Below are positions 26,921-35,933 of a stretch of DNA of 38,342 bases, one piece after another (the first letter of the stretch is position 1; every line of letters begins with the position of its first letter). The notes beneath the pieces were generated by a model. The model ran no database searches. It was not told where the DNA came from and saw only the letters and a program-made list of their open reading frames with translations. Where the stretch lies: the NCBI GenBank assembly GCA_002782005.1, contig PFGT01000112.1, positions 12,203-50,544 of the forward strand, read 5' to 3'. The stretch comes from Hydrogenophilales bacterium CG12_big_fil_rev_8_21_14_0_65_61_21. GTDB taxonomy: Bacteria; Pseudomonadota; Gammaproteobacteria; Burkholderiales; Thiobacillaceae. The position numbers were made by a program, and so were the translations under genes.

Positions 26921-26960
26921 TCGGCAATTTTTCTAATTGAATAAGTGGTTTATACCGTTC

Positions 26961-29714
<2,754 letters not shown>

Positions 29715-29730
29715 TCTCGCCAAACGGCTT

Positions 29731-29747
29731 GCCTGGCCGGGCGTTTT
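29731..29747 (+). terminator. Weak terminator candidate after secA
   Basis: GCCT and GGGC flank a short GGCC loop and are followed by G and four T. The stem is short and contains a G-T pair, so function is doubtful. Confidence 0.25.
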
Positions 29748-29787
29748 ATCCGACAATTCTTGTCAACATTTAACGGAGTTGTCGGAT
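29748..29787 (+). promoter_or_regulatory. Perfect 9-bp inverted repeat around the ribosome site and start codon
   Basis: ATCCGACAA (29748-29756) and TTGTCGGAT (29779-29787) are exact reverse complements, 22 nt apart. The loop holds GGAG (29775-29778), the Shine-Dalgarno of the next gene, and the right arm ends in the AT of its ATG. A second overlapping palindrome, GACAA-TTC-TTGTC (29752-29764), uses the left arm and an extra TTGTC. It could be a DNA operator or an RNA switch that hides the start site. Confidence 0.65.
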
Positions 29788-30013
29788 GCCCTACTTCATC
29801 TACGAAATTGGCCCGCTGAAGATACTGAACAAGCGCGGCCAAGCCGCCAGCTTCAAGGAGGCCAAGGCCCAAGCCAATGTGCTACGCAAGGACCTGGACC
29901 CTAATAGCGGCCTTCAGATCAAGATGATCTTCGCCGAAAACGAATTACTGGCTGAGGACATCCTGTCCCAACCACGCGAGGTTGGCGATTCGCTGGCCGG
30001 CGACGACTACTGA
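29786..30013 (+). CDS. Small conserved protein of unknown function
   Basis: A 75-residue soluble protein starting MPYFIYEIGPLKILNK, then a helix rich in Lys/Ala, and IKMIFAENELLAEDILSQ. It resembles short uncharacterised betaproteobacterial proteins that end in the same IFAE-type motif, by recollection. GGAG is 7 nt upstream. It is the first gene of a four-gene operon (10-, 7-nt gaps, then a 4-nt overlap), and its translation start is embedded in the inverted repeat. No function can be assigned. Confidence 0.78.
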   Translation: MPYFIYEIGPLKILNKRGQAASFKEAKAQANVLRKDLDPNSGLQIKMIFAENELLAEDILSQPREVGDSLAGDDY

Positions 30014-30023
30014 GGGGCCGGCA

Positions 30024-30365
30024 ATGAGCGAGACCTTCTGCGATCTGGCCAAGGGCAAATGCAAACCCTGCGAAGGCGGCATCCCGCCGCTGTCCGCGCA
30101 CGAAATCGAGACCCTGCTGAAAGGCCTGAACGGCTGGGCGGCGGTCGACGGCAAGCTGGCCAAGGATTTCAAGTTTCCCGACCACTATGTGACCATGACC
30201 TTCGTCAATGCCGTGGCCTGGGTCTCCCACAGCCAAGGCCATCACCCCGACCTGGCGGTCGGCTACAACACCTGCCGGGTCCAATACATCACCCACGCCA
30301 TCGGCGGCCTGTCCGAGAGCGACTTCATCTGCGCCGCCAAGATCGACCGGCTAACCGAGCTTTAA
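30024..30365 (+). CDS. phhB: 4a-hydroxytetrahydrobiopterin dehydratase (pterin-4a-carbinolamine dehydratase)
   Basis: Dehydrates 4a-hydroxy-tetrahydropterin, in some bacteria to recycle the cofactor of phenylalanine hydroxylase. The 113 residues from MSETFCDLAKGKC include SHSQGHHPDLAVGYN and VQYITHAIGGLSESD, the catalytic histidine motifs. C6, C13 and C16 form a cysteine cluster at the N terminus, common in proteobacterial members. The start is supported by AGGGG upstream. No phenylalanine hydroxylase is nearby, so a different pterin, possibly one linked to molybdopterin, is plausible but unproven. Confidence 0.9.
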   Translation: MSETFCDLAKGKCKPCEGGIPPLSAHEIETLLKGLNGWAAVDGKLAKDFKFPDHYVTMTFVNAVAWVSHSQGHHPDLAVGYNTCRVQYITHAIGGLSESDFICAAKIDRLTEL

Positions 30366-30372
30366 CCTGGCC

Positions 30373-30819
30373 ATGTCCGGCTACAACGAAGACGCCTACC
30401 AGGATGCCCGCGAGTCGGCCATCGGCCTGATCTGCCCATTCGAGCGGGCGCTGCTGTCGCGTTGCGTGGTCTGCGACAAGGCCCATCGCCTGCTCCTGGC
30501 GGAACGGGAAGCCATAAGCTGTACCGAGCAGACGGCCTGCGACCTGTGTCAGCGTTTTCACGCCGAGTTACACCAGAATGCCCGCTTCGCCCTTCATGCC
30601 GAGCCCAATCAACCCTGGCCATTCGGCAAGGAAATCCGCGTCCAGTGCGGCGGCGTCCTGGGTCTGGCGGAGACGTTGGAAAACCCGGCCGGGCCGACCA
30701 CGGATGTCGCCCTGTCGGTGGCTGAAGGCCGCCTGCGCTTCGGCGAGATCGGCCGCTTTCCCTATTCCGAGATCATGCGCGCCGTGGTCCATTACGAACC
30801 TCGCCGACGCAGGAAATGA
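30373..30819 (+). CDS. Cys-rich protein, unknown function
   Basis: A 148-residue protein with cysteines at 21, 31, 34, 50, 56, 59 and 92, giving two C-x(5-9)-C-x2-C groups (CVVC at 31-34, CDLC at 56-59). This spacing suits Fe-S or zinc binding. No family is recognised. It starts 7 nt after the pterin dehydratase and its end overlaps the FAD oxidoreductase gene by 4 nt, so it could be an electron partner of that enzyme (inference). Confidence 0.78.
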   Translation: MSGYNEDAYQDARESAIGLICPFERALLSRCVVCDKAHRLLLAEREAISCTEQTACDLCQRFHAELHQNARFALHAEPNQPWPFGKEIRVQCGGVLGLAETLENPAGPTTDVALSVAEGRLRFGEIGRFPYSEIMRAVVHYEPRRRRK

Positions 30820-31748
30820 AGGTCGCGGTCATCGGCGCCGGGCCGGCCGGCATGTCCTGCGCCAACGCCCTGCTCAGCTTCGGACTGGAGCCGGTGGTGA
30901 TCGAACGCGCCGCTCAGGTCGGCGGCATCCAGCGGGCCAATTTCCACCCTAACCTGTGGATGCTCGGCATCCCCGGCGAAACCGGCTGCCAGATCACCGA
31001 ACGACTGGCCCGGCATTACTTCGACCTGCCCGTCACCACCCTCATGAATACGCGGCTACTGGCCGTAACCCGGGCCGGTACGGCTTTTAACCTGCGCCTT
31101 GCCGGCCCGGAAGGCGAATCCGAACAGGTGGTCGCCGCCTTGGTGCTGGCCACTGGCTCCCGACCTCGGGCCACGCCGGAGCTGGAGGCCCTTGGCCGGC
31201 ACTCCCGCCGGGTGGTCATCGGACCGCTCAACGACCGTATTCGTGACGAGGTGCGCAATGCCCGGGTGTTGGTCCTGGGCGGCGGCGACAATGCCCTGGA
31301 CCATGCCTTGTTTCTGGCTGAGCGCGGCAACCACGTGACCGTATCCGCGCGCAGCCGATTCAGCGCCCGTAGACAGTTCCAGGGCGCCTGTGACGCGTGT
31401 ACGGGGATTGAATTGGTCAGCGGCCAGGCGCCCACGGCTTTGGCGGCGGACGACGACGGTATAAAGGCCGCTTGGCCTGACCGGAAGGAACGCTACGACT
31501 GGTTACTAGTGATGTATGGCTATCGGCCCAACAACGACCTACTGGACGTCTTCGAGCCCGCCATCCGGCCGACGCTGACCGCCTCCGGTCATATTCATGT
31601 TGATCGCCGCCAACAGACCACCGTGCCAGGTATCTATGCCGCCGGTGACATTACCGACAGCATCCAGCCCAGCGTGCCGACCGCCATCGCCCAAGGCCTG
31701 GCCGCTGCCAAGGCCATCGAACAGGATCAGGTTACGCAATCGACATAG
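30816..31748 (+). CDS. FAD/NAD(P)-dependent oxidoreductase, thioredoxin-reductase-like without the usual CxxC
   Basis: A 310-residue two-dinucleotide protein: GAGPAG (7-12) for FAD, ATGSRP (112-117), GGGDNALDHA (155-164) for NAD(P), and AAGDIT (275-280). In thioredoxin reductases a CxxC lies just before the second GxGxxG; here that place reads VVIGPLNDRI. A CDAC (192-195) stands instead after it. So it is unlikely to be a classical thioredoxin reductase. Last gene of the operon, it overlaps the decarboxylase gene by 22 bp tail to tail. Confidence 0.83.
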   Translation: MKVAVIGAGPAGMSCANALLSFGLEPVVIERAAQVGGIQRANFHPNLWMLGIPGETGCQITERLARHYFDLPVTTLMNTRLLAVTRAGTAFNLRLAGPEGESEQVVAALVLATGSRPRATPELEALGRHSRRVVIGPLNDRIRDEVRNARVLVLGGGDNALDHALFLAERGNHVTVSARSRFSARRQFQGACDACTGIELVSGQAPTALAADDDGIKAAWPDRKERYDWLLVMYGYRPNNDLLDVFEPAIRPTLTASGHIHVDRRQQTTVPGIYAAGDITDSIQPSVPTAIAQGLAAAKAIEQDQVTQST

Positions 31749-34701: not shown

Positions 34702-35790
34702 TCAGGTGTTTTGAATCACGATGCTGGGGAACTTGGCGCTGTGGTCGACGGCCAGGTCGCCGACCTTGACCGCGACCCGGCGGGCGATGGCGCGGTAGAT
34801 CTCGGCGATGCGCGACTCCGGCTCGGCCACCACGGTCGGCTTGCCGGCATCAGTCTCTTCCCGGATACGGATGTCGAGCGGCAGGCCGCCAAGGAACTCG
34901 ACACCATAGTCGTTGCACATCTTCTGGCCGCCGCCGGTGCCGAAGATCGGCTCTTCATGACCGCATTGGGAACAGATGTGCAGGGACATGTTCTCGACCA
35001 CGCCGAGGATGGGCACGCCCACCTTCTCGAACATCTTGAGGCCCTTGCGGGCGTCGATCAGGGCGATGTCCTGGGGCGTGGTGACGATCACCGCGCCAGT
35101 CACCGGCACGCGCTGGGCCAGGGTCAACTGGATGTCGCCGGTGCCGGGCGGCAGGTCGACCACCAGGTAATCGATGTCCTTCCACTTGGTCTGGTTAAGC
35201 AACTGTTCCAGCGCCTGGGTGACCATCGGGCCGCGCCAGACCATGGGGGTATCGACATCGATCAGGAAGCCGATCGACATGGCTTGCAGGCCGTGGCCGA
35301 TCATCGGCTCCAGCGATTCGCCATCGGCCGACTCCGGCCGGCCGGTAATACCCAGCATGGTCGGTTGCGACGGGCCGTAGATATCGGCGTCCAGCACCCC
35401 GACGGTAGCGCCTTCGGCGGCCAATGCCAGGGCCAGGTTGACGGCGGTAGTCGACTTGCCGACGCCGCCCTTGCCGGAGGCCACGGCGATGATATTCTTG
35501 ACCCCGGGGATCAGCTTGACGCCGCGTTGCACGCTATGGGCGTTGACCTTCCAGGAGACATTGGCCTCGGCGGCCGTCACGCCGGGAATCGACTTGATCT
35601 TGTCTTCGACCAGCGCCTTGATCTGGTTCATGACCATCTTCGCGGGATAGGGTAAGGACACGTCGAGTGTGACCTTACCGGCCTCCACCTTGATGTTCTT
35701 GGCCGACTTGGAGGTAATGAAATCCTTCTGGGTATTGGGATCGACCAGCTCTTTCAGAGCGGTCTGGACCTGCTGTTCGGAAACCGGCAT
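34702..35790 (-). CDS. apbC: Fe-S cluster carrier ATPase ApbC/Mrp
   Basis: A 362-residue P-loop protein that binds and transfers Fe-S clusters. An N-terminal DUF59/MIP18 domain (1-90) precedes the deviant Walker A GKGGVGKS (106-113); VDLPPGTGDIQL (211-222) is the switch region, and C273/C276 in CSQC bridge the cluster at the dimer interface. It is followed by a terminator and heptamer repeats, and preceded by a 143-bp gap. Confidence 0.96.
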   Translation of the reverse strand: MPVSEQQVQTALKELVDPNTQKDFITSKSAKNIKVEAGKVTLDVSLPYPAKMVMNQIKALVEDKIKSIPGVTAAEANVSWKVNAHSVQRGVKLIPGVKNIIAVASGKGGVGKSTTAVNLALALAAEGATVGVLDADIYGPSQPTMLGITGRPESADGESLEPMIGHGLQAMSIGFLIDVDTPMVWRGPMVTQALEQLLNQTKWKDIDYLVVDLPPGTGDIQLTLAQRVPVTGAVIVTTPQDIALIDARKGLKMFEKVGVPILGVVENMSLHICSQCGHEEPIFGTGGGQKMCNDYGVEFLGGLPLDIRIREETDAGKPTVVAEPESRIAEIYRAIARRVAVKVGDLAVDHSAKFPSIVIQNT

Positions 35791-35933
35791 AACGTACCTC
35801 GATAAACAAAAAAAGGGTGATGGCCAAGTGAGGGCGGACTCGCCTTAATCAAGGCCGCCTGGCCAGGGAGCTATACTTGACAAGTCTACTCGATTATCGG
35901 GCGCTTGGGCAGCCAATCTGCACGCCGTCGCCA

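Follow-up and report, generated by a model that had tools for sequence, protein, structure and literature searches.

A predicted IscR type-1-like operator over the promoter of a conserved small-protein operon

Introduction

The question raised by this locus is what a perfect 9-bp inverted repeat around the Shine-Dalgarno sequence and start codon of a small-protein operon stands for. In the window (the whole stretch of 38,342 nucleotides that was analysed), the arms ATCCGACAA (29748-29756) and TTGTCGGAT (29779-29787) on the forward strand are exact reverse complements separated by a 22-nt loop, which holds GGAG at 29775-29778; the last two bases of the right arm are the A and T that open the start codon at 29786, and a palindrome GACAA-TTC-TTGTC occupies 29752-29764. 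The first-pass annotation, whose account of the exact pairing, of the GGAG in the loop and of the right arm reaching into the first two bases of the ATG is borne out by the sequence, proposed either a two-state RNA switch on translation or a repressor operator made of three GACAA/TTGTC half-sites.

Methods

Upstream DNA was compared across 61 distinct loci of the gene for the 75-aa protein that begins at 29786. The alignment of relatives was anchored on the -10 box, the spacing from the -10 box to the ATG differing by a few bases between relatives. Shuffled upstream sequences were used as the null for the scores against the IscR type-1 box consensus. Genome scans were done with the pattern ATANYYGACN7GTCRRNTAT, with two mismatches at most and with a reversed control.

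Results

The upstream gene is secA (26937-29714, forward strand; stop codon at 29712-29714), an ORF with the SecA C-terminal zinc-binding motif, which is the same neighbour in relatives and a possible source of read-through. It is followed on the forward strand by the genes for the 75-aa conserved protein (29786-30013; no Pfam or NCBIfam family), pterin-4a-carbinolamine dehydratase (30024-30365; PF01329), the 148-aa conserved protein (30373-30819) and, as the last of the run, an FAD/NAD(P) oxidoreductase (30816-31748; PF07992). The 75-aa gene was found in 107 of the 117 family genomes searched, with the 148-aa gene as its constant neighbour, always nearby; the designation as a small-protein operon thus holds, these two genes staying together across relatives. 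The dehydratase gene belongs to the operon only in this genus and was absent beside the 75-aa gene in other genera. Six cysteines are conserved in the 148-aa protein (C21, C31, C34, C50, C59 and C92); five of them are present in 40/40 homologues and one in 39/40. This protein had no match by sequence in Pfam, NCBIfam, PHROGs or PDB; its AlphaFold model (mean pLDDT 89.9) gave no significant Foldseek match among solved structures, and a fold search with the model of the 75-aa protein gave nothing significant.

The 9-bp repeat had been called unlikely by chance. This claim is weak, as the window contains 16 perfect 9-bp inverted repeats with a loop length of 3-30 nt whereas simulations with a first-order Markov model yield 6.0 (sd 2.4), so that such a repeat is by itself a poor indicator of function. 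The outer arm pair and GACAANNNTTGTC each occur once in the whole genome, and a regulon built on exact GACAANNNTTGTC sites was rejected on account of this single copy. Apart from the window, only its sister species (L002/L031; 75-aa protein 96% identical) has the outer repeat. In the 21 other promoter-bearing loci the -10 region pairs with the leader over 3-6 bp at most, and no covariation between the arms was seen among them. The columns of the right arm (29779-29787) carry 0.07-0.62 bit and are not conserved, and the left arm is kept in relatives only as part of the -10 box and the operator described below. Judged by these alignments, the longer outer repeat is probably a chance feature of a single small clade, or else at most forms a hairpin of minor importance in read-through RNA.

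In many loci, distant ones included, the 75-aa gene follows secA or a different gene so closely that a promoter would not fit in between. Where the gap is longer, most loci carry TTGNNN, a spacer of 17 nt (16-18) and then GACAAT, CACAAT, TACCCT, TAACCT or TATAAT, with the start codon some 25-35 nt past the -10 box; the TTG-N17-(-10) layout is retained even in relatives in which the -10 box is TACCCT or TATAAT. The corresponding elements in the window, all on the forward strand, are a -35 box TTGCCT (29729-29734), the TTG of which is invariant in 17/17 aligned relatives (2.0 bits per column), and, after 17 nt, a -10 box GACAAT (29752-29757), which lies within the left arm of the 9-bp repeat and is invariant in the aligned set except for one CACAAT. 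Together they form a predicted sigma-70 promoter (29729-29757). The transcription start is predicted at about 29765 (29764-29766), 7-9 nt past the -10 box at a conserved TCA(A), and the Shine-Dalgarno GGAG (29775-29778) is found in most relatives too. A simple scan for the sigma-70 consensus, owing to its stricter threshold, did not return the promoter at 29729-29757. Hairpin candidates for a secA terminator at 29725-29743 were weak and were rejected. GACAAT as a generally preferred -10 box was also rejected; the family shows no enrichment of CTTGAC-N18-GACAAT (4 matches vs 4 control) and TTG-N20-GACAAT gives 9 matches vs 2 control in this genome, so GACAAT looks largely specific to the operator-overlapped promoter.

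The -10 box and the predicted start point are spanned by a single 25-bp box at 29746-29770 (no strand assigned), TTATCCGAC-AATTCTT-GTCAACATT, with dyad arms of the form ATASYYGAC / GTCRRSTAT, which is predicted to be an IscR type-1-like operator. It agrees with the IscR type-1 box consensus ATASYYGACTRWWWYAGTCRRSTAT (quoted in PMC6599224 and PMC3899308) at 18/25 positions (72%), and the orthologous sites in relatives of eight genera at 18-23/25 (72-92%); both reach the match level of the footprinted P. aeruginosa IscR sites (64-76%), which also lie over promoter boxes (PMC6599224). The score was 18-23/25 in 23 of the 24 listed promoter-bearing loci, the distant L056 being without a box. The 61 distinct loci split cleanly into 24 with an upstream box of at least 18/25 and a remainder at 17 or below, and the best score in shuffled upstream sequences had a mean of 15.1 (sd 0.96), with 1.25% at 18 or above. 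The dyad is conserved at this centre, where arm complementarity amounts to 5.05/9 pairs as compared with 1.1-3.7 at 31 other centres (n=21), and most columns of the dyad arms carry 1-2 bits. When aligned on the -10 box, the dyads of L018, L043 and L011 read ATAGCCGAC-N7-CTCGGCTAT, ATACCCGAC-N7-GTCAACAAT and TTAGTTGAC-N7-CTCAACTAT, respectively. In L007 (G016:C63:41107-41131) a stretch of C/G-rich repeated DNA sets the box and promoter apart from the gene, at a distance of 163 nt from the start codon.

The window copy (18/25, with ATT at the right end where the consensus has TAT) is among the weakest of the orthologous boxes. A score of at least 18 by the same count is also reached at six further places in the window, including the apbC site described below, so that the copy at this promoter would not stand out alone. 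In the boxes of this promoter, GACA...(G/C)TC mostly takes the place of the central T and A of the E. coli consensus (GACT...AGTC), partly because the -10 box overlaps the arm. Proven P. aeruginosa sites deviate at this position as well (GACC...ACTC and GAGT...GATC; PMC6599224), so that the central bases are preferred rather than strictly required.

The genome encodes IscR (TIGR02010, 208.3 bits, just above the cut-off of 207.55), in which the cluster ligands C-x5-C-x5-C-x2-H are present. The pattern scan gave 11 sites in this genome vs 3 in the control, some of them inside coding frames and probably matching by chance, and about 9-15 sites vs 0-3 in most other family genomes; it returned the promoter studied here in the relatives G003, G004, G007, G015 and G016. 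Boxes in this genome precede cysE (39 nt upstream) and iscR itself (44 nt upstream, 3 mismatches), and further ones precede sodB (two), folE2 (45 nt), the gene for a DUF5619 protein and apbC; among these, iscR, cysE, sodB and apbC count as accepted IscR targets or as genes of iron-sulfur metabolism or oxidative stress. The apbC site is a second IscR type-1-like site in the window (35873-35897, no strand assigned; 1 mismatch to the scan pattern, 20/25 against the consensus), 83 nt upstream of the gene for the iron-sulfur cluster carrier protein ApbC (mrp; 34702-35790, reverse strand; NF008669, 455.8 bits, cut-off 348). The two sodB boxes lie between this gene and a divergent DsrC-family gene (L097 1482-1581; G000:C96:4681-4780), and the folE2 box is the IscR-like palindrome ATATCCGAGTAAACTACTCGGATAT (L102 around 1519; G000:C36:6518-6542). 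The folE2 box and the pterin dehydratase in the operon of the window are together a hint that IscR may be connected with pterin/folate genes in this genus. An IscR-like site was also seen in two relatives (L108 in G007 and L114 in G003) ahead of a gene resembling that for the dissimilatory sulfite reductase subunit DsrA; this gene was named by eye, the fragment having matched no family.

Discussion

Taking the upstream comparison and the genome scan together, we consider it highly probable that the operon has a sigma-70 promoter of which the -10 box and the start are covered by a predicted IscR type-1-like operator (29746-29770). The suggestion of a repressor operator was right in kind, but the half-sites were wrong; they are not three GACAA/TTGTC units, the third of which is the outer right arm and has no conservation in relatives beyond the sister species. 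Besides the weak window copy and the altered central bases, it weighs against an IscR operator that 37/61 loci have no such box upstream of the gene, which often lies directly behind secA, and that the genome has a second Rrf2-family protein. This second regulator, which has cysteines and is encoded beside a gene with SCO1-like sequence (L065 1438-1896; G000:C44:42570), might bind the dyad instead; we regard this as very unlikely, since the motif fits the published IscR box and precedes iscR, as in autoregulated iscR operons. The Proteobacteria-wide regulon paper (PMC5343134) makes no mention of isc genes or the Rrf2 family. A constitutive promoter whose extra symmetry around the -10 box serves no regulator would be in line with the weak copy of the box in the window, and the -35/-10 geometry alone accounts for TTG and GACAAT, but conservation runs past the promoter boxes (29746-29751 and 29763-29770) with dyad symmetry and the motif recurs upstream of iscR, cysE, sodB and apbC, which makes this reading improbable.

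The RNA readings depend on where transcription starts. Two competing stems can be drawn in the leader and the long one would be stable if transcribed; the left arm, however, coincides with the predicted -10 box and precedes the predicted start, and as this start lies inside the dyad, the mRNA of the operon itself would lack the left arm and could not form the proposed hairpin. Rfam gave no match, the pairing is absent in 21 relatives, and the alignment of relatives that the first-pass annotation had suggested as a check showed no covariation and a right arm conserved only in one sister species. A two-state switch on translation in the leader of the operon was rejected on the missing conservation, the missing covariation and the position of the promoter, and is hardly credible. 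In IS10-type fold-back inhibition, a hairpin forms over the start codon of read-through mRNA. By analogy, secA read-through RNA, which holds both arms, would hide the Shine-Dalgarno sequence and ATG, and the mRNA of the operon itself would be translated freely. For read-through RNA of the window, folding indeed gives -31 kcal/mol (z -4.1) and a paired start region, as compared with a z of +0.55 for RNA that begins at the predicted start. Both sister species have the repeat, with 56/57 identity from the promoter through the ATG; at third codon positions, identity is 79-82% in the 75-aa gene and in secA. This near identity, which includes the right arm, is nevertheless largely what a predicted promoter and operator would themselves give. 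Folding placed the start-codon hairpin exclusively in read-through RNA, and this in the window and its sister alone; the 21 other promoter-bearing relatives lack it (mean z -0.23; mean change in start accessibility -0.05). A search on fold-back inhibition gave nothing relevant in the literature library covered. The repeat being present in only two close species, fold-back carries low weight and is quite improbable.

With the promoter under an IscR operator, control would run as follows. In P. aeruginosa, [2Fe-2S]-IscR binds type-1 boxes over promoter elements and represses (PMC6599224), from which we infer the same here. When clusters are plentiful, [2Fe-2S]-IscR on the dyad would block RNA polymerase and the promoter would be repressed; when clusters are scarce or damaged, by iron shortage or oxidative damage, IscR would lose its cluster and leave the site, and the 75-aa/148-aa operon would be transcribed. 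As far as sequence comparison can tell, a shortage of iron-sulfur clusters thus probably turns the operon on, although control may be weaker in the species of the window, its box being among the weakest of the series. An IscR box upstream makes an iron-sulfur or metal role the natural hypothesis for the six-cysteine 148-aa protein. More tentatively, the putatively IscR-controlled pair could be an unrecognised iron-sulfur protein system, in which the 148-aa and 75-aa proteins would act as a new cluster-binding or cluster-assembly factor of these bacteria. Placing a conserved operon with a six-cysteine protein of no known family or fold in a predicted IscR regulon provides a concrete hypothesis of function. 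The locus also illustrates how a promoter and an operator that share bases with the leader can give rise, as a side effect, to a conspicuous hairpin at the start codon.

The predicted promoter shares with known sigma-70 promoters the TTG, the 17-nt spacer, the -10 hexamer and a start 7-9 nt later, and differs in that the -10 box is GACAAT, which is compatible with the operator. With IS10 fold-back it has in common that the promoter lies inside the 5' arm, so that only read-through RNA could form the start-codon hairpin; the locus is, however, not a transposon, its arms are not conserved and read-through from secA is hypothetical here. As in the IscR type-1 operators of isc in E. coli and P. 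aeruginosa and of nfuA and tpx in P. aeruginosa, a 25-bp dyad ATASYYGAC-N7-GTCRRSTAT lies over promoter boxes, and the L014 site ATAGTTGACAATGATACTCGGATAT is almost the same as P. aeruginosa site B ATAGTTGACCTAATTACTCGGATAA (PMC6599224). Unlike in the known operators, the arm here overlaps the -10 box, the operon downstream is uncharacterised and the copy in the window is degenerate.
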